This document shows, one piece after another, positions 49,135 to 60,021 of a stretch of 64,000 nucleotides of DNA (positions are counted from its first letter, which is position 1; every line of letters begins with the position of its first letter). Origin of the DNA: Rhizobium acidisoli (GTDB lineage: Bacteria > Pseudomonadota > Alphaproteobacteria > Rhizobiales > Rhizobiaceae); assembly GCF_002531755.2 (NCBI RefSeq), contig NZ_CP034998.1:4505281-4569280 (forward strand), written 5' to 3'. The notes beneath the pieces were generated by a model that saw only the letters and a program-made list of their open reading frames with translations, was not told where the DNA came from and made no database searches. The translations under genes and the position numbers were made by a program.

Positions 49135-50785
<1,651 letters not shown>

Positions 50786-50815: not shown

Positions 50816-52477
50816 TCAATCCAGCCGGATATAGGGCACGTCCTTCTTCGCCACCTCGTCCAGCGCCTCCTCGTAGCCAGCATCGGCATACCGCATGACG
50901 CCGAGGGCGGTGTCGTTGGTCAGCGCGTGGTCGAGCCGCTCGTCGGCGGCATCGGTGCCGTCGGCGACGACGGTGACGCCGCAGCTCGTCATGTAGCCGG
51001 CATAGCCGCCGCCGCCGGAATGGACGACGACGAGATCGGCCATCGACGAGCAGAGCATCATCGCATCGATCAGCGGCCAGTCGGCGATCGCGTCGGAACC
51101 GTCCTTCATCCGCTCGGTCATGATATTCGGATGCGCCATGGCGCCGGCGTCGAGATGGTCGCGGGAGAAGGCGACCGGGCCCTTCAGTTCGCCGCTCGCA
51201 ACCAGCGCGTTGACGCGCCGCGCCAGCATCGTGCGCTCGCCGTGGCCGAGCCAGGCAATGCGGGCCGGCAGCCCCTCGAAGGGAACGTGCTCGCGCGCCA
51301 GCCGGATCCAGTTGGTGATGATTTTGTTGTCGGGAAACATCTCGAGCAGCAGGTCGTCGATGCGGGCGATATCGCTTTCCTCGCCTGACAGCGCCATCCA
51401 GCGGAACGGCCCGATCGCCCGGGCAAACAGCGGTCTCAGATAGGCTTCGGTGAAGATCGGGATGTCGAAAGCATTGGCGACGCCACCCTCTTTCGCCTGC
51501 GTGCGGATGAGATTGCCGTTGTCGAAAACCTCCGAGCCGCGCTTCTGGAACTCCAGCATCGCCGTCACATGCTCGACGATCGAGGCGCGGCTTGCCGCCA
51601 TCAATTGCCCTTGGCCGTCGTCGCGCAATCCCCTGACCTGATCGAGGTCCATGCCTTTCGGCACATAGCCGTAAACGAGGTCGTGGGCCGAAGTCTGGTC
51701 GGTGACGATATCGGGCACGATGCCGCGGCGGGCGATTTCGGGATAGACCTCGGCCGCATTGCCGACGAGCCCGACGGACAGCGCCCGCTTCTCTTTCACC
51801 GCCGCATCGATCATCTCAAGGGCGGTATCGAGATCGGGCGCGATCTCCTGGAGATAACCGATCTGCTGGCGCTTGCGGGCGCGTTCCGGATCGATGTCGA
51901 CGCAGAGGATGGCAGCACCCGCCATGCGGCCGGCGAGCGGCTGCGCCCCGCCCATGCCGCCGAGCCCGGCCGTCAGCACGAAGCGGCCGGCGAGATCGCC
52001 GCCGAAGCGCCGTTCGGCAATGCGCATGAAGATCTCGTAGGTCCCCTGGATGACGCCCTGGCTGCCGATATATTGCCAGGCGCCCGCCGTCAGTCCGCCC
52101 CAGCAGATCAGTCCCTTGCGCTGCAGCTCGTAGAACACTTCGGCTTTTGCCCATTGCCCGACGATATTGCAGTTGGCCATGATGACGAGCGGCGCTTTGG
52201 CATGGGTCCGCACCAGCCCGATCGGCTTGCCGGACTGGATGAGCAGCGTCTGGTCCTCCTCCATCTCGGTCAGCGCCTTGACGATGCCCTTGTGCGCTGC
52301 CCAGTTGCGGGCCGCCTTGCCGAGCGCGGCATAGACGATCAGGTTGTCGGGATCCTCGCCGACGGACAGCACGTTTTCGAGCAGGCGCAGCAGCGCCTCC
52401 TGCCGCCAGCCCTTGGCGCGCAACTCCGGCCCGCCGGGAATCGGAAATTTCGGATGGCGTGGATTGGCCTTCGGCAT
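50816..52477 (-). CDS. Urocanate hydratase homologue with altered active site, candidate thiourocanate hydratase
   Basis: A 553-residue HutU-family protein, the usual length. The NAD-binding GLGGMGGAQPLAGRMAGA, TAGAWQYIGSQGVIQGTYE, VTDQTSAHD and SRDHLDAGAMAHPN segments follow the family. The signature that normally reads HHGGGVGMGFSQHSG is here HSGGGGYAGYMTSCG (residues 486-500), a substantial change at the substrate end. With the MIO-less lyase and hydantoinase-type genes upstream, hydration of thiourocanate rather than urocanate is inferred. The ATG at 52477 (MPKANPRHP) is chosen; the frame above it runs into repeat B. It is the last gene of its operon. Confidence 0.85.
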   Translation of the reverse strand: MPKANPRHPKFPIPGGPELRAKGWRQEALLRLLENVLSVGEDPDNLIVYAALGKAARNWAAHKGIVKALTEMEEDQTLLIQSGKPIGLVRTHAKAPLVIMANCNIVGQWAKAEVFYELQRKGLICWGGLTAGAWQYIGSQGVIQGTYEIFMRIAERRFGGDLAGRFVLTAGLGGMGGAQPLAGRMAGAAILCVDIDPERARKRQQIGYLQEIAPDLDTALEMIDAAVKEKRALSVGLVGNAAEVYPEIARRGIVPDIVTDQTSAHDLVYGYVPKGMDLDQVRGLRDDGQGQLMAASRASIVEHVTAMLEFQKRGSEVFDNGNLIRTQAKEGGVANAFDIPIFTEAYLRPLFARAIGPFRWMALSGEESDIARIDDLLLEMFPDNKIITNWIRLAREHVPFEGLPARIAWLGHGERTMLARRVNALVASGELKGPVAFSRDHLDAGAMAHPNIMTERMKDGSDAIADWPLIDAMMLCSSMADLVVVHSGGGGYAGYMTSCGVTVVADGTDAADERLDHALTNDTALGVMRYADAGYEEALDEVAKKDVPYIRLD

Positions 52478-52502
52478 GGTGGTTTCCTTTTTGCGTCTCT
52501 GC

Positions 52503-52671
52503 TCTTTCTCTTCTCCCCAGCGGGGAGAAGGTGGCCCGAAGGGTCGGATGAGGGGGCCATACGGTACGCCTTTGCTTGCCTTCGCTTGCGCTCGGGCACT
52601 CGCGGCCTTGCCGCTCACCCCCTCATCTGTCCTTCGGACATCTTCTCCCCGCTGGGGAGAAGGGGAAAGCT
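52503..52671. repeat. Composite inverted repeat, family B, between TfoX-like and HutU-like genes
   Basis: Left arm 52503-52556 and right arm 52617-52670 are imperfect reverse complements. Each arm contains its own palindrome, CTTCTCCCCAGCGGGGAGAAG-like in sense. Short blocks are TTCTCCCC, GGGGAGAAG and ATGAGGGGG/CCCCCTCAT. This type of element is scattered in rhizobial genomes. The transcript would fold into a large nested stem-loop in front of the HutU-like gene. Confidence 0.75.
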
Positions 52672-52677
52672 CAGTCT

Positions 52678-53007
52678 TTACTTCTCCGGCAGCGATTCCA
52701 CATAGGCGAGCGCGCCATCGAGCAAACGCCGTCTCAGCCGATCGTCGCCATAAACCTCGGCCGTGGCCCGCACCCAGCCCTGCATTATCCGTTCGCCGGA
52801 CAGCATCTGGATCACGCCCGGCAGCGCCAACGCCCAGCCGTCATTGCCTTTGCCGAGACGGATCAGCATGCCGTCGCTGCGCGCGCCGCAGAGAAGATTG
52901 CCGTTCAGCAGGAAGGCCCGGCCGCCGAACATGGATTTTTCGGTCACCCCCGACCGATCGCCGAGTTCCTCGCGCAGCAGTTCTTCGAGGCCGGGATCGC
53001 GCGTCAT
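52678..53007 (-). CDS. TfoX/Sxy N-terminal domain protein
   Basis: A 109-residue protein with a single TfoX N-terminal-like domain (VTEKSMFGGRAFLLNGNLLCGARSDGMLIRLG). The competence regulator Sxy has an extra C-terminal domain that is absent here, so a competence role should not be assumed. It lies three bases after the DUF917 stop, inside the ergothioneine-like operon. Its job there is unknown, and it may be an unrelated passenger. No DNA-binding motif is obvious. Confidence 0.82.
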   Translation of the reverse strand: MTRDPGLEELLREELGDRSGVTEKSMFGGRAFLLNGNLLCGARSDGMLIRLGKGNDGWALALPGVIQMLSGERIMQGWVRATAEVYGDDRLRRRLLDGALAYVESLPEK

Positions 53008-53010
53008 GGC

Positions 53011-54108
53011 TCAGGCCTTCGTTTCCAAAGCGTATCGGGCGATCTCGATCCCCATCGCCTTTTCGACGACGGGATAAACTGTGGGATCAAGCACGCTTGC
53101 CGACAGCGGGATGATCTCCTTCGGCACATGCAGGATGAAGACGGGCATGCCTTCCCTGAGCTGGCCGACGCTGAGCGGCTCACCCTCCGGCGACAGCGTG
53201 GTGATCACCGCGGGGAAGGTTGCAAGCCGCTCGCCATCGGCATCGTCCACGGCCATATATTCGTTCATCACATGCAGCGTCACCGATGTTGCGCCCGAAC
53301 CGACGATGACCGTGCCGATGTCGAAGGCTTCCTTGGTGTAGACGACGTCTTTTCGGGAGATGACGCCGTCGGCGAGGATATGTCCGCCCGTCGTCTTGCA
53401 GATCGCATCGATGACAGCAGAGCCGCCGCGCTTTTCCGCCGCGATGATCGCCTCGCCGAGCGCCAGCGCCATCGAGATGCCGCCGAGTGCGGCATGGCTG
53501 CGGACATAGGAAGCGCGCAGCGGGTTGCGGCAGCTGGCGATGAAGCCGCCGGATTGATCGGCGGCGGCGCGCAGCACCGGCGAGATCTTCGCCGTCGCGC
53601 CCTTCACCACCAGTTCGATATACCGGTTCTCGGCCCTGTTGCCGCCGACCGCGGTCTGGATCATCTGCTCCGGCGAGCCGGCCATGCCGATCGAGCCCAT
53701 GTCGCCGGTGGGATGGGCGCGGATATCGCCGACCGCGTCGACCACCTTGGTGCCGAGGATCGCCGAGGGCAGCCAGCCGTTCAGCGTCGAGGATTTGCCG
53801 TTCTGGCCGATGATGAGGCCCGAGAGCTTTTCGCCGAGCGCCTCCTGTAGGAGTTGTACCGCTTTGACATAATCGATGCCCTGCATTTCCCAGGGCGTGG
53901 TGGAGGCCGGCGCGCCGATCGCCGCAGCCGTCGCGATCCAGTCGTCGTCCCGGAGCTCCTCGATCGAAACCAGCTCCGGCTTGCCGACATTGACCGCGGC
54001 AAGCCCAAGCATCCGTCCGTGATCGGCCCAGCCGCCGCCGCCGGCGGCATAGACGGAGCCGCCCTTGACCGCGGCTTCCACGTCCTTCTCAACCAGTATG
54101 CGTCCCAT
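53011..54108 (-). CDS. DUF917 family protein, candidate desulfurating enzyme of the cluster
   Basis: A 365-residue DUF917 protein, a family near hydantoinase/oxoprolinase-like proteins. The N-terminal glycine-rich stretch YAAGGGGWADHG (about residues 21-32) and DAVGDIRAHPTGDMGSIGMAG are conserved. No reaction can be read from motifs. In a five-enzyme route from ergothioneine to glutamate, it is the only unassigned enzyme-like gene and so the candidate for the thio-hydantoin propionate desulfurisation step. That assignment is inference. The 5' end overlaps the M20 gene by 20 bases. Confidence 0.78.
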   Translation of the reverse strand: MGRILVEKDVEAAVKGGSVYAAGGGGWADHGRMLGLAAVNVGKPELVSIEELRDDDWIATAAAIGAPASTTPWEMQGIDYVKAVQLLQEALGEKLSGLIIGQNGKSSTLNGWLPSAILGTKVVDAVGDIRAHPTGDMGSIGMAGSPEQMIQTAVGGNRAENRYIELVVKGATAKISPVLRAAADQSGGFIASCRNPLRASYVRSHAALGGISMALALGEAIIAAEKRGGSAVIDAICKTTGGHILADGVISRKDVVYTKEAFDIGTVIVGSGATSVTLHVMNEYMAVDDADGERLATFPAVITTLSPEGEPLSVGQLREGMPVFILHVPKEIIPLSASVLDPTVYPVVEKAMGIEIARYALETKA

Positions 54109-55369
54109 CGGCCTTCTCCCGCGTCAAATCCTTGTCCATCTCGCACACCGCCTCGAACAGGACGGCGGCGCCGAGCGCGATATCGTCATTCTCTGCCCAT
54201 TCGTCAGCGGAATGGCTGCGGCCTTCCCGGCAGGGCACGAAGATCATCGCCGCCGGCGCCACTTTGGCGATCCAGGCGGTATCGTGTCCCGCGCCGGAAG
54301 CCATGCGCCGATATTTGGCGCCGACGCGTTCGCAGGCAGCCTCCAAGGTCGATAGCAGGCCGGCATCGCCCGGTGTCGGCATATTGTCGGACACTCGGTT
54401 CGGCGTCTCGATCGTGACGCCATAGGCGGTGGCCAGCTTTTCGACATGACCGTCGAGCCAGCGGCAGAAAGCCTCCATGTCGGCACGAATCTCGGCGCGG
54501 CCATCGATCAGCAGCACCACTTTCGACGGCACGACATTGGCGGCATTCGGCTCGATCCTGAATTCACCCACCGTCGCCGCGAAGTGGCCCGGCGTTTTGG
54601 AGAGTTCAGCGGCGGCGTTGCGGATGTCGAGCACCAGCTGTGAGGCTGCCACCAGCGCATCCGCCCGCCGGTCCATCGGCGTCGTACCGGCATGATCAGC
54701 CCGCCCCTCGACGGTGATCTCGATGCGGGTGATGCCTGCAATCGCGGTGACGATGCCGATATCCTCCCTTTCGGCTTCGAGCACCGGTCCCTGCTCGATA
54801 TGAAGCTCGAGAAATCCGGCGAGATCCGGCCGCTTCTGCTGCGCCAGCACGCCGGGCTCGCCGCCCACCTCAGCGATGCCCGCGGCAAGGTCGAGACCGC
54901 CGCTGACCCGGGAAAGCCAGGCTTCCGGCAATTGCCCGGTCATCCCACGGCTGCCGATGCAGGAGACGCCGAAGATGCTGACCTCCTCGGCAAGGAAGTC
55001 GACGATTTCGAGATCGTGGTCGAGTTCGATCGCCTGGTCGCCGAGCGCACGCGCCACCTCCAGCGCCGAGATCACCCCGGCAATGCCGTCGAAACGGCCG
55101 CCGTCCGGCACCGTGTCGGAATGCGAACCGACCATGATGGTGCCGAGCCAGGGCTTGCGGCCCGTTCGCCGGCCGATCAGATTGCCGGCGGCATCGATGC
55201 GCGTCTCCAGTCCCGCCGCCTTCATCTGCGCTTCGATGAAGGCCCGGCCTTCGAGAAAGAGCGGCGAGAAGGCCCGTCGCGTCCAGGGGTGCCCCGGCTC
55301 GGTGATTGCGGCCAGCGCCTCGATATCCCCGGCGATCCGGCCGGCATTGACGGGCAGATTGCGGCTCAT
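54089..55369 (-). CDS. M20-family N-carbamoyl amino acid hydrolase (hydantoinase/carbamoylase type)
   Basis: A 426-residue zinc amidohydrolase of the allantoate amidohydrolase / N-carbamoylase group. Metal-site segments are GSHSDTVPDGGRFDG (His83, Asp94), the Glu pair in FLAEEVSIFG, ELHIEQGPVLE and the C-terminal REGRSHSADEW. GAGHDTAWIAKVAPAAMIFV is also conserved. In context it should hydrolyse N-carbamoyl-L-glutamate to glutamate, ammonia and carbon dioxide. Its ATG overlaps the stop of the hydantoinase gene (55366-55369), indicating coupling. Confidence 0.88.
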   Translation of the reverse strand: MSRNLPVNAGRIAGDIEALAAITEPGHPWTRRAFSPLFLEGRAFIEAQMKAAGLETRIDAAGNLIGRRTGRKPWLGTIMVGSHSDTVPDGGRFDGIAGVISALEVARALGDQAIELDHDLEIVDFLAEEVSIFGVSCIGSRGMTGQLPEAWLSRVSGGLDLAAGIAEVGGEPGVLAQQKRPDLAGFLELHIEQGPVLEAEREDIGIVTAIAGITRIEITVEGRADHAGTTPMDRRADALVAASQLVLDIRNAAAELSKTPGHFAATVGEFRIEPNAANVVPSKVVLLIDGRAEIRADMEAFCRWLDGHVEKLATAYGVTIETPNRVSDNMPTPGDAGLLSTLEAACERVGAKYRRMASGAGHDTAWIAKVAPAAMIFVPCREGRSHSADEWAENDDIALGAAVLFEAVCEMDKDLTREKADGTHTG

Positions 55370-56745
55370 GCAGGAGCTCCCGCAATGACCTGGCGCGGCA
55401 ACGGCCGCACGAACCGTCCGCTGCCGGGCTCGGCCAGCACCTTGCCGTCTTCGGCGATCTTCTCGCCCCTGAGATAGGTGGCGGAAACGGTCCAGGGCAG
55501 GCGAATGCCGTTATAGGGGCTCCAGCCGACGACATTATTGCCGCTGGCCGCAGCGTCATAGACGCTGTCCTTCGGTTCGAGCACGGTGATATCGGCATCT
55601 TTGCCCGGCGTCAGCGCGCCCTTGATATGGTCGAGCCGGAAATGCCTGGCCGGATTTTCCGCCATCAGCCTGGCTGCCCAGGTCAGCGGAATGCCGCGTT
55701 CGAGTGCCCCTTTGACGAAGAGCGGCACCATCACCTCGAGGCCGGGAACGCCGGAGGCGTTGGCGAGCATGTCGGGATTGGTCTTGCGGTTCTCCGACCA
55801 GCTGACGTGATCGGTCGAGACCAGCCAGACATCACCCGCCGCTACCTTCCGCCAGAGGGTCTCCACCTCGGCGCGCGGCCGCAGCGGCGGATTGATCTTC
55901 GCCTTGCCGCCGAGGCGCTTGACGTCGTTTTCCTCGTCGAGCGTCAGATAATGGATGCAGCATTCGACCGTTGCCGCAAAGCCGTCGCGGCGATAGGCGC
56001 GGGCGATGTCATAGCCGCGCCCGAGCGAGCAGTGCACCACATGCGAGGGGCAGTGGGTCGCGGCACCCGTTTCGAAGATCGTATGCATCGCCAGCAGTTC
56101 GGTAATCGGCGGCCGTGACAGGCCGTGCGCCCGCCAGTCGGTGATGCCGCTTGCCTTCACCTCAGCCATATAGCTGCGCACCGCCTCGTCATCCTCATTG
56201 TGCACGCCTGCGGTCAGCCCGGTCGGCGCGATCGCCGCAAAACAGGCGTCGAGCAGGGCCGGCGGAATGCGTGGAAAACGCTTGGGGTCGGTGCCGAAGG
56301 TCGAGAATTTGAACGCGGCAACCCCTGCCTCGACCATCTCGCCGATCCGCGCCGGGCCTTCTTCCGGGTCGACGGTGCCGTAAAGCGCGAAGTCGACGCG
56401 TGCCTGCTGGCCGGCATGCTCGATCTTGCGTTTGACCGCTGCGGCCGAGCAGACGAGATCACCCTCGTCATAGGGCATGTCGACGATCGTTGTTACGCCG
56501 CCGGCCGCTGCCGACCGCGTCGACCAGATGAAATCCTCCTGGTCCTTCTGCGAGAGCGAATGCACCTGCGCGTCGATCGCGCCGGGCAGGATGAGTGCTT
56601 TGCCGAGCAGGTGGCGTTCCCGCGCCGCAGGCGGCACGCCGAGGCCGACCTCGGCGATCCTGCCGTCGCGCACTGCGATATAACCCGCTTCGACAATGCG
56701 GTCCGGCAGCACCACCGTGCCCTGCAGAACGAGATCGAAGTCCAT
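55366..56745 (-). CDS. Hydantoinase-type amidohydrolase (allantoinase/dihydropyrimidinase-like)
   Basis: A 459-residue metal-dependent cyclic amidase. The metal Lys is likely in AAFKFSTFG (Lys146), with further ligands in AGVHNEDDE (His182), HVVHCSLGRG (His238) and STDHVSW (Asp312). The usual HxH after PGxID reads QVH here (IDAQVH, Gln60-Val-His62), so the first metal ligand is changed. WSPYNG resembles allantoinase. In context it should open hydantoin-5-propionate to N-carbamoyl-glutamate. GGAGG lies just before the ATG. Allantoin or pyrimidine substrates are alternatives. Confidence 0.85.
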   Translation of the reverse strand: MDFDLVLQGTVVLPDRIVEAGYIAVRDGRIAEVGLGVPPAARERHLLGKALILPGAIDAQVHSLSQKDQEDFIWSTRSAAAGGVTTIVDMPYDEGDLVCSAAAVKRKIEHAGQQARVDFALYGTVDPEEGPARIGEMVEAGVAAFKFSTFGTDPKRFPRIPPALLDACFAAIAPTGLTAGVHNEDDEAVRSYMAEVKASGITDWRAHGLSRPPITELLAMHTIFETGAATHCPSHVVHCSLGRGYDIARAYRRDGFAATVECCIHYLTLDEENDVKRLGGKAKINPPLRPRAEVETLWRKVAAGDVWLVSTDHVSWSENRKTNPDMLANASGVPGLEVMVPLFVKGALERGIPLTWAARLMAENPARHFRLDHIKGALTPGKDADITVLEPKDSVYDAAASGNNVVGWSPYNGIRLPWTVSATYLRGEKIAEDGKVLAEPGSGRFVRPLPRQVIAGAPA

Positions 56746-56768
56746 GTCGCCTCCTCCAAAAGCTGAGT

Positions 56769-58355
56769 TCAGATGGCCTGCGCCTCGTGGCGGGTCAGCC
56801 GCTCTTCGATATGCTCCAGTGATCCGAGCGCAAAGAAATCGTCGAAGGAGGCGATCGGAACCTGTGCGGTCAGTCTCGACAGGAAGTCGTCCGAGCCGAG
56901 CTCCTCCTCGATTGCCTCCACCTCAGCCGAAAGCGGCCTGTCCACGATATAGAAATCCGCATGTTTGCGCACGACCTCGTAGAGCATGGCGGCGACGCCC
57001 TTCGGTTCATCGCCGAGGATGTCGATCGCCTGGGCGGAGAGCAGCGCCTCCAGCGCTGCCAGGCGCTTCAACGCCTGCATCTGCCGCTCGAAGCGCTCGA
57101 TGACCAGCGGCAGGAAGGCCGCCTCGTCCTCCAGCCCCGCCGCCACCACCAGCGACTGCGCCGACACCGGATTGGACATCGACAGCACGCGCGAAAAAAT
57201 CTCGCCGGCAAGCTTGATGATCGGCCCGAATCCGGTGGCGATCCGCCCCGGCGGCACGAGATTGACCGGCAGGTCGCGCCGCTGGCCGTTGCCGAGAATG
57301 ACGCAGCGGTTGAAGGCATTGCGCGCCGCATGCGCCATGCAGAGGGCTGCTGATTCGAGCAGGATCGTCACGTCGAGCGGAAGCGAACCGCCGGAGGTCA
57401 TCACCCGGCCTTCGACCACGACCGGATTGTCGTCCGAACGCCCGGTGGCGGCAAGGATTTTATGGCCTGTTGACAGGAGGTTTTCGATGACCGCGCCGAA
57501 CACCTGGGCGATCATGCGCAGGCTGAGCGGATCCTGCACATGCGTTGCAACAGGCCAGTTCCAGTCGTCGGAGGCGTTGCAGAGCCAGGCGCCGATCAGC
57601 GCCTCACGCGCCGTGCCGACATGGCGCACCGCCTTCCAGGGATCACGCGATGCACCGAGCGCGCCGGCCGCCATCATCGCCGTCGCCAGCAGGATGCGGA
57701 TCGAGGCCGCCGCATTGCGCGTCGTTTCCGCGGCCGCGGCAAAACTCACCGCATTGATGCTGAGCGAGGCAAGGCTGTCGCGCGGCGCCATCCGCACCGG
57801 CTCCAGCCCGGCCGCCCGGAAAGCCTCAGCCGCCTGCATGCGGTTGCCGCGGTAGATCGCTTCGCCGACCCCGGTCAGCACCGCGCCGATCTGCCCCATC
57901 AGGCCGATATCGGCGCAGCCGATCGAGCCGGTGCGGCGCACGACCGGGATGAGATCGGCTTTCAGCATGGTGATATAGGCCTCGATCAGCTCCGGCGTGC
58001 AGCCGACCTGGCCGGTCAGGGCCGTATTGACGCGGATCGCCATGGCATTGCGCACGACATTGCAGGAAAACGGCGTGCCGGTGCCGAAATGATGGGCGCG
58101 CACCAGGCCGAGATTGAAGGTGTCGAGTTCGTCGGCCGACCATTCCACATCCTTCATGGCGCCGACGCCGGTTGTCGAGCCGTAGACGGGCATGCCGGAG
58201 GCGATCGCATCCTCGACGATCTCGCGGGCAATGGCGATGCGGGCCATGCCGGTGGCCGAAGCCGAAATCGTCGCCTTGCCCGCACCGATCGCCACCATCT
58301 CGGCAAAACCGAGCGGCCGTCCGGAAAGTTCGATGCCAGGGCGTTCGTGCTGCAT
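56769..58355 (-). CDS. HutH-like aromatic ammonia-lyase-fold protein lacking the MIO triad, candidate ergothionase
   Basis: A 528-residue member of the histidine/phenylalanine ammonia-lyase fold. VYGSTTGVG (Tyr58 in the catalytic position), HVQDPLSLRM and GRSDDNPVVVEG follow the family. Histidine lyases form their MIO group from Ala-Ser-Gly near residues 142-144. Here the matching segment GSIGCADIGLMG has Cys147-Ala148-Asp149, so MIO cannot form in the normal way. Known MIO-free relatives include ergothionase, which eliminates trimethylamine from ergothioneine. It is the first gene of its operon. The ATG at 58355 has AGGAGATATGGC before it. Confidence 0.85.
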   Translation of the reverse strand: MQHERPGIELSGRPLGFAEMVAIGAGKATISASATGMARIAIAREIVEDAIASGMPVYGSTTGVGAMKDVEWSADELDTFNLGLVRAHHFGTGTPFSCNVVRNAMAIRVNTALTGQVGCTPELIEAYITMLKADLIPVVRRTGSIGCADIGLMGQIGAVLTGVGEAIYRGNRMQAAEAFRAAGLEPVRMAPRDSLASLSINAVSFAAAAETTRNAAASIRILLATAMMAAGALGASRDPWKAVRHVGTAREALIGAWLCNASDDWNWPVATHVQDPLSLRMIAQVFGAVIENLLSTGHKILAATGRSDDNPVVVEGRVMTSGGSLPLDVTILLESAALCMAHAARNAFNRCVILGNGQRRDLPVNLVPPGRIATGFGPIIKLAGEIFSRVLSMSNPVSAQSLVVAAGLEDEAAFLPLVIERFERQMQALKRLAALEALLSAQAIDILGDEPKGVAAMLYEVVRKHADFYIVDRPLSAEVEAIEEELGSDDFLSRLTAQVPIASFDDFFALGSLEHIEERLTRHEAQAI

Positions 58356-58446
58356 GTGCCATATCTCCTAGATTACGAGATTAAGCGGCCCCTCCGTCAC
58401 ATGGGATATCCTAAATGCCGAACACAGCATGTTTTTGACAGGCGGA

Positions 58447-60021
58447 TCAGCTCAGCATCCAGGCAATATAGAGAAGCATCAATGCGATCACCCAGAGGGC
58501 GATCCTGGCGGAGCGGTTGTGCCGCGCCTCGGCCTTGCCGATCGCATCCGCCGTCTCAGCGTCGAAGCGTAAGCCGTGTTCGCTCATGTGCAGAAGCTGG
58601 TGGTGGAATTTTTCGGTCTTCGCCGCAATTTCCGGCACGGCTTCGGCAAGCTTCACTGCCGCCTTCAGCCCATCCTTCAGATCGGTGGCGATCCGCTTCG
58701 GGCCGAGATTGGTGCGGATCCAGTCGCCGACGACCGGCTCGGAGGCCTTCCACATGTTGAAGCGCGGATTGAGCATGCGCGACACGCCTTCGACGACGAC
58801 CATGGTCTTCTGCAGCATCACCAGCTCCGGCCGTGTCGCCATGTCGAAGAGTTCAGTCACTTCGAACAGCAGCGTCAACAGCTTGCCCATCGAGATCGTC
58901 TCCGCCGGCTGTCCATGGATCGGCTCGCCGATCGCCCGGATCGCCTGGGCGAAACTCTCGACATTGTGGTGGCCCGGCACATAGCCCGCCTCGAAATGCA
59001 CCTCGGCGACGCGGATATAGTCGCGGGTGATGAAGCCATAGAGAATTTCGGCGAGGAACCGCCGTTCCTTTTTGCCGAGCCGCCCGACAATGCCCATGTC
59101 GACCGCAACGATCATGCCGTCCGCATCGACGAAGAGATTGCCCGGATGCATGTCGGCATGGAAGAAGCCGTCGCGCAGCGTGTGGCGCAGGAAGGACTGG
59201 ATCAGCGTGTCGGCGAGCAGGTTGAGATCGTGGCCGGCCGCGCGCAGCCCCTCGACGTCGGACATGCGGGTGCCGTCGATCCATTCCATGGTGATGACGT
59301 CGCGCCCGGTGCGCTCCCAGTCGACCTTCGGCACGCGGAAACCGGGATCCCTTTCGGTATTCTCGGCGATTTCGGAGAGGGCGGCCGCCTCCAGGCGAAG
59401 ATCCATCTCCACCTTCGTCGTCTGCTCCAGCGTCTTCGTCACCTCGACCGGCCGCAGCCGCCGGCTGGAGGCCAGGAAACGCTCCTGCATACGGGAGACG
59501 AGATACATCGCCTCGATGTCGTGGGCAAAGCGCTGGCGCACGCCGGGCCGCACGATCTTGACGGCGACCTTCTTGCGGCCCTCCGATGTTTCGACTTCGG
59601 CAGGATGCACCTGGGCGATCGAGGCAGCGGCGATCGGCTCGCCGAAGCTCGCATAGAGCTCGTCGATCGGCCGCCCGAGCGAGCCTTCGATATTGGCCTT
59701 GGCCGCAGCCGAGGGGAAGAAGGCCATCCGATCCTGCAACTGCGACAGGTCGTTGGCGAATTCGACGCCGACGACATCCGGCCGCGTCGCCAGGAACTGC
59801 CCGATTTTTACATAGGAGGGGCCGAGCCGCTCGACGGCGTGCGCCAACCGGTCGCTGCGCTTTTGATGGCGCGCCTTGCTGCGTTCGAAAATCGTCACGA
59901 AGGATTTGGCGAGCGCCACCGGAGGCGGCAGGCCTTCGGAAGGCAGAGCTGAGACGACGCCCTCACGCACAAGCACCCAGCCGACGCGCCAAAGGCGGAA
60001 ATAGGCCCCGAACGTGCTCAT
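58447..60021 (-). CDS. ubiB: UbiB-family atypical kinase/ATPase for ubiquinone synthesis
   Basis: A 524-residue ABC1/ADCK-type protein needed for ubiquinone synthesis, anchored at the inner membrane. The family KxGQ motif is seen as YVKIGQFLATRPDVV (about residues 70-85), and the alanine-rich P-loop equivalent as ASIAQVHPA. The catalytic loop is FFHADMHPGNLFVD and the metal-binding segment is VDMGIVG. A C-terminal hydrophobic helix (IALWVIALMLLYIAWML) gives the membrane anchor. It lies 48 bases after ubiE and is probably co-transcribed. Confidence 0.95.
   Translation of the reverse strand: MSTFGAYFRLWRVGWVLVREGVVSALPSEGLPPPVALAKSFVTIFERSKARHQKRSDRLAHAVERLGPSYVKIGQFLATRPDVVGVEFANDLSQLQDRMAFFPSAAAKANIEGSLGRPIDELYASFGEPIAAASIAQVHPAEVETSEGRKKVAVKIVRPGVRQRFAHDIEAMYLVSRMQERFLASSRRLRPVEVTKTLEQTTKVEMDLRLEAAALSEIAENTERDPGFRVPKVDWERTGRDVITMEWIDGTRMSDVEGLRAAGHDLNLLADTLIQSFLRHTLRDGFFHADMHPGNLFVDADGMIVAVDMGIVGRLGKKERRFLAEILYGFITRDYIRVAEVHFEAGYVPGHHNVESFAQAIRAIGEPIHGQPAETISMGKLLTLLFEVTELFDMATRPELVMLQKTMVVVEGVSRMLNPRFNMWKASEPVVGDWIRTNLGPKRIATDLKDGLKAAVKLAEAVPEIAAKTEKFHHQLLHMSEHGLRFDAETADAIGKAEARHNRSARIALWVIALMLLYIAWMLS

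Follow-up and report, generated by a model that had tools for sequence, protein, structure and literature searches.

A run of six minus-strand genes in a 64,000-nucleotide stretch of Rhizobium acidisoli DNA (contig NZ_CP034998.1, positions 4,505,281 to 4,569,280; hereafter the window, with all positions counted from its first letter) very probably constitutes an ergothioneine-utilization (ert) operon. In the list of open reading frames (ORFs) of the window, the genes extend from 58355 down to 50816, with a lyase gene first and a hydratase gene last. Each matches the Pfam family assigned to it, in agreement with the preliminary description of this head-to-tail cluster. The pathway is already known, both in print and in NCBIfam models, and the operon itself is a further member; any novelty would lie in the clade to which its lyase belongs.

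The chemistry is predicted to be that of the pathway already in print, in line with the names of the models. A lyase devoid of 4-methylideneimidazole-5-one (MIO) would convert ergothioneine into thiourocanate and trimethylamine (step 1), and a HutU-like enzyme would hydrate thiourocanate to 2-thiohydantoin propionate (step 2). A DUF917 protein would then exchange sulfur for oxygen, yielding hydantoin-5-propionate and sulfide (step 3), a hydantoinase-type enzyme would open the ring to give N-carbamyl-glutamate (step 4), and an M20 enzyme would hydrolyze this product to glutamate, CO2, and ammonia (step 5). This route had been proposed in the preliminary description, and four of its five enzymes indeed exceed the NCBIfam equivalog cut-offs for ergothioneine catabolism.

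These curated models establish the enzyme families for steps 2 to 5, their cut-offs being passed by thiourocanate hydratase, thiohydantoin desulfurase, ErtD, and ErtE (Table 1); close alternative models were scored as well. As a control, the ert genes of Burkholderia cepacia (locus L144) exceeded the cut-offs of the same four models. The HutU of the same genome scored 972.3 bits on the hutU model and 686.2 bits, below the cut-off of 930, on that for thiourocanate hydratase. The best PDB match of the window hydratase is 7ned (823 bits). In urocanases, the Cys of the signature F-Q-G-L-P-A-R-I-C-W is catalytic. The window hydratase reads FEGLPARIAW at this signature, with Ala in place of the HutU Cys, versus FQGLPARICW in the genome's own HutU, which bears out the altered signature reported earlier. 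The Cys was absent from all 108 thiourocanate-hydratase-like rows (Ala in 103, Gly in 4, Ser in 1), a count in which some genomes appear twice.

For step 1, residues, fold, tree, and genomic linkage are the grounds on which we infer the reaction. The alignment, from which the cut-off row L106 was dropped, confirmed that the MIO triad is missing: the loop of the window lyase reads GSIGC-ADIG and is one residue shorter than GSVGASGDLA in two true histidine lyases, so that the MIO-forming Ala-Ser-Gly (ASG) of HutH is not found. The score on the HutH model TIGR01225 was 207.2 bits, under the cut-off of 539.15. By both sequence and predicted fold, the nearest solved structure is the ergothionase of Treponema denticola (PDB 6s7j). 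In a first tree of 67 rows, from which 17 near-duplicate loci, hits below 300 bits (L123, two pieces), and seven thinned rows had been dropped, three groups were separate: the histidine lyases; class C, comprising the T. denticola enzyme and Burkholderia-type lyases; and clade R, in which Rhizobiales lyases stand with those of acetic-acid bacteria. A second tree combined 33 hand-picked rows of these 67 with 25 new lyases taken from further genomes; the ASG triad is present in 24 of these 25. The comparison lyases on the MIO side grouped together (29 rows), with support of 98/93 for clade R plus class C, 100/100 for clade R, and 100/97 for class C.

The window lyase therefore groups away from the MIO lyases, including the MIO histidine lyases, a grouping with which would have refuted the preliminary description by its own criterion, and on this sequence evidence it belongs to the ergothionase lineage. 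It lies outside class C, in the sister clade R, which is a separate deep clade. Since the characterized ergothionases belong to the other clade, we infer the exact substrate of the window lyase. All 33 rows compared from clades R and C share residues Y58, N201, K381, and E409, and 6s7j has the same residues. From their aligned positions, we take these to be the catalytic Tyr, Asn, Lys, and Glu of ergothionase. The Lys is also present in a lyase outside both clades and is by itself unspecific.

This latter protein, a further MIO-less lyase, is encoded on contig C5 of the same genome (L100:4385-5860). Its loop reads GSIGAGD, its best PDB match is also ergothionase (258.6 bits), and it branches just outside clades R and C; no hydratase match was present in the 9-kb stretch around it. 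Two of the 29 MIO-side rows lack the ASG triad, namely L203 and a paralogue on contig C4 of the same genome. A HAL-like paralogue near the hut genes (L099:3124-4617) has the loop GSAGYLTH instead of ASG, and L203 contains a similar paralogue. Among the named ert loci, L166 carries a MIO-type lyase.

Genomic linkage was examined in a sample of 297 genomes of the family, with lyase matches counted at E 1e-100 or better. The thiourocanate hydratase exceeded its cut-off in 40 genomes, and a clade R lyase was found in 31, every one of them among these 40. Four of the 31 lyase matches contain one in-frame stop. Lyase and hydratase occur in all five genomes of the organism and its genus, with the genes together in 5/5 stretches, and in the window the MIO-less lyase adjoins the pathway genes in the same operon as the enzymes of steps 2 to 5. 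In G237, the lyase is located ~180 kb away from the hydratase. Beyond the family, a scan of named genomes with the desulfurase alignment gave 458 stretches encoding a relative. The best 80 of these, taken as named ert loci, range from Burkholderia and Achromobacter to Serratia, Gluconobacter, and Rhizobium. In the family of G631, the hydratase was over its cut-off in one of 198 genomes (G838).

Several observations weigh against this interpretation. In nine of the 40 hydratase-bearing genomes, no clade R lyase was matched at the E 1e-100 threshold, which is at least untidy. Four of the nine were examined: G096 (Pseudochrobactrum) has a class C lyase in the same operon slot, and no lyase was present in the stretches fetched from G049, G068, and G156. 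The window lyase is only ~26% identical to the T. denticola ergothionase, its predicted fold places ergothionase ahead of aminomutase and HAL by a small margin, and class C rows were part of the alignment behind the fold prediction. No ergothionase model by which step 1 could be scored turned up in NCBIfam. The lack of such a name was initially considered a warning against the lyase and was dropped, as the ert-locus lyases of Burkholderia, Serratia, and Gluconobacter behave alike, matching only HAL-, PAL-, TAL-, and aminomutase-type models, all under cut-off. Among the papers listed in literature searches of one open-licence library, none dealt with clade R, and no description of the activity of a clade R enzyme was encountered. 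ErtE scores higher on the generic Zn-hydrolase model NF009531 (842.1 bits, cut-off 486) than on its own, and its assignment is therefore the weakest of the four. The window hydratase also passes the loose hutU cut-off (TIGR01228, 696.9 versus 375 bits), although this score is far below its 1063.5 bits as thiourocanate hydratase. Since the thiourocanate hydratases of B. cepacia and Gluconobacter likewise pass it (706.5 and 708.6 bits), the hutU cut-off cannot separate HutU from thiourocanate hydratase. Finally, neither an importer nor a regulator linked to the operon was found within the window.

Among the alternatives, the true substrate could be ergothioneine sulfonate, or both forms, in which case the operon would mainly dispose of oxidized ergothioneine with release of sulfite; we consider this unlikely. 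The T. denticola ergothionase is said to accept the sulfonate as well, and an in vitro ergothioneine sulfonate pathway was reportedly described in 2022 by Yan. The bacterium concerned probably belongs to the same family as that of the window; the substrate named there is the sulfonate. In that pathway, trimethylamine is reportedly released from a related betaine. In a survey, Agrobacterium radiobacter, a Rhizobiaceae name, is listed among the holders of ergothionase, and an in vitro ergothioneine sulfonate pathway is cited for it (PMC13405746). The strain formerly called 'Agrobacterium radiobacter K84' today bears the name Rhizobium rhizogenes K84, and the window lyase shares 83% identity with P0046, a protein whose name refers to R. 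rhizogenes; others may thus already have assayed an enzyme of clade R. On the other hand, the operon scores above the cut-offs for both thiohydantoin desulfurase and thiourocanate hydratase, as expected for the thione form. As for the earlier statement that the route was known from a Burkholderia isolate and not from Rhizobium, the Burkholderia ergothionase is indeed in print, while the pathway is in print more widely and A. radiobacter is listed in PMC13405746.

Another possibility, which appears very unlikely, is that the clade R lyase acts on some other 2-thioimidazole or on a related betaine and that the later enzymes are shared. Subclasses of clade R lyases are ~54% identical, i.e., they vary far more than the hydratases beside them (82–98%, in uncut stretches), and a class C lyase fills the slot in Pseudochrobactrum, whereas the residues that never vary in either class speak for one shared reaction. 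It is highly improbable that S-methyl-ergothioneine, or a thiohistidine betaine with another S-modification, is what the operon degrades: parallel NCBIfam models exist for the S-methyl route and are matched in part by the hydratase (NF058531, 741.2 bits) and the desulfurase (NF058532, 282.3 bits), but these scores fall short of the respective cut-offs of 880 and 450, those of the thiono models are well exceeded, and the S-methyl route was rejected. A route for histidine or another imidazole through hydantoin propionate, which the preliminary description had offered as an alternative, or a decayed hut operon, can practically be dismissed, because the resemblance of the lyase and hydratase to HutH and HutU, and the hydratase score above the hutU cut-off, are set against a lyase without the MIO triad and far short of the HutH cut-off, a hydratase without the urocanase Cys, and a clade R lyase occurring only alongside thiourocanate hydratase in the 297 genomes. 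Moreover, HutF, HutI, HutH, HutG, and HutU are all over their cut-offs on another contig, C4; a hut set there indicates that the ert cluster is not the histidine route. The reported absence of hutI, hutG, and hutF holds for the cluster itself and not for the genome. Within the ergothioneine reading, it is quite possible, if tentative, that clade R represents a second subfamily of MIO-less ergothionases, which takes the leading position in ert operons that are conserved in their other genes and whose substrate may be different, with a preference for oxidized ergothioneine as one example. Together with the C5 lyase, the MIO-independent branch of the lyase superfamily would then be broader than the known ergothionases.

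A bacterial five-step ergothioneine catabolic pathway was reportedly described by Beliaeva, Leisinger, and Seebeck in 2021. The operon shares with it a like enzyme set, as named by the NCBIfam models (thiourocanate hydratase, thiohydantoin desulfurase, ErtD, and ErtE), plus a MIO-less lyase; it differs in that the lyase comes from the sister clade and that an extra TfoX_N gene is present. The T. denticola ergothionase (6s7j), reportedly described by Maurer in 2019, has in common with the window lyase the fold, the lack of a MIO triad, and the Tyr, Lys-Asp, Asp, Asn, Lys, and Glu positions. Apart from low identity and a different clade, the loop has Cys-Ala in the window lyase and Glu-Gly in the T. 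denticola enzyme. An ergothionase of Burkholderia sp. HME13 is also said to be in print. Burkholderia-type class C lyases have the same genomic partner genes and key residues as the window lyase, although that of B. cepacia L144 is only ~30% identical and falls in the sister clade. In L144, ErtD and ErtE lie on the strand opposite to the hydratase and desulfurase, whereas all genes of the window operon are on one strand. With the hut system, the cluster has the superfamilies of the lyase and hydratase in common; it differs in the absence of MIO, the urocanase Cys, and HutI/HutG/HutF, the hut set being on the other contig.

Table 1. Features of the proposed ert operon and its flank (window positions).
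Feature	Position	Strand	Basis
MIO-less aromatic-lyase-family protein, ergothionase-like, clade R (proposed step 1)	56769..58355	-	residues, fold, tree, genomic linkage
ErtD-type hydantoin-5-propionate amidohydrolase, hydantoinase-type (step 4)	55366..56745	-	NF058538 781.2 bits, cut-off 600
ErtE-type N-carbamyl-L-glutamate amidohydrolase, M20 family (step 5)	54089..55369	-	NF058540 628.6 bits, cut-off 520
DUF917/S-Me-THD-like protein, thiohydantoin desulfurase (step 3)	53011..54108	-	NF058529 602.5 bits, cut-off 440
TfoX_N-domain protein, 109 aa, putative accessory	52678..53007	-	PF04993 37.3 bits
Palindromic intergenic repeat, between TfoX_N gene and hydratase gene	52500..52665	.	108 matching segments in own genome
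Thiourocanate hydratase, urocanase family (step 2)	50816..52477	-	NF058530 1063.5 bits, cut-off 930
Gap of 91 bp, ubiB to lyase gene	58356..58446	-	ORF list
ubiB, same strand as operon, adjoins lyase-side end	58447-60021	-	ORF list

In gene order, the first two genes are 23 bp apart, the next two junctions overlap by 4 bp and 20 bp, and the last two are gaps of 3 bp and 200 bp. The 200-bp gap is largely occupied by a palindromic repeat, presumably RIME-like, whose segment count in Table 1 includes the copy in this gap as well as single places matched on both strands; in the relative L004, the corresponding gap is far shorter. The start of the hydratase was corrected to the ATG at 52477 (MPKANPR...), giving a protein of 553 aa. 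A 600-aa ORF with an upstream GTG start was rejected as too early, its extra leader overlying the repeat. The TfoX_N protein had no match in NCBIfam, and its gene occurs in 15 of the 35 stretches compared (own included) and 4 of the 80 named loci; it therefore seems dispensable for the pathway itself. No sigma-70-like site was found in the gap between ubiB and the lyase gene; the promoter and terminator scan gave one and two sites, respectively, no more than in shuffles, and the Rfam scan gave no matches. Beyond the hydratase, an MFS transporter gene (49135-50402) is split across two frames in the window, as a pseudogene or through a sequencing error; in four same-genus stretches it is a single ORF of 419–430 aa.

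In many relatives, a LysR-family regulator (L038:14874-16106), which seems from its sequence to carry two helix-turn-helix parts, is divergent from the ert operon, and it is absent at the window locus. Matches to it occur in 26 stretches, two pairs of which come from the same genome; full-length copies next to a clade R lyase are on the opposite strand (35 stretches compared). In the window's genus, ubiB occupies this position. A search of the same genome for a moved copy gave a best match of 35%, which is at a similar distance from the LysR2 copies. Some relatives have SDR-like and ABC-transporter-like genes after the operon, which the window lacks; the latter are a possible importer. In L038, L035, L036, L032, and L112, the operon adjoins a GlxA-like regulator and a BKACE-like gene, perhaps for carnitine use; these neighbors, like those after the operon, were named by reading their sequences. 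With regard to the use of trimethylamine, a glutamine synthetase III (GmaS-like) match is over its cut-off at L224 (G000:C4:2185-3470), with the front part in another frame and a stop.

Ergothioneine is a fungal and bacterial thiol and antioxidant that animals and plants acquire externally, and bacteria of the Rhizobium group live in soil and on legume roots. Since the EgtB model had no match in the same genome, the ergothioneine is probably taken up from the production of others. Arbuscular fungi raised the uptake of ergothioneine from soil by beans, according to PMC10840373. The ert operon in all five genomes of the organism and its genus suggests that these bacteria may use soil ergothioneine as a source of nitrogen and carbon. 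The ergothionase survey mentioned above started from the Burkholderia enzyme (PMC13405746). Because clade R lyases are hidden in databases behind labels such as histidine or aromatic amino acid lyase, surveys with such a starting point could under-count ergothionase.

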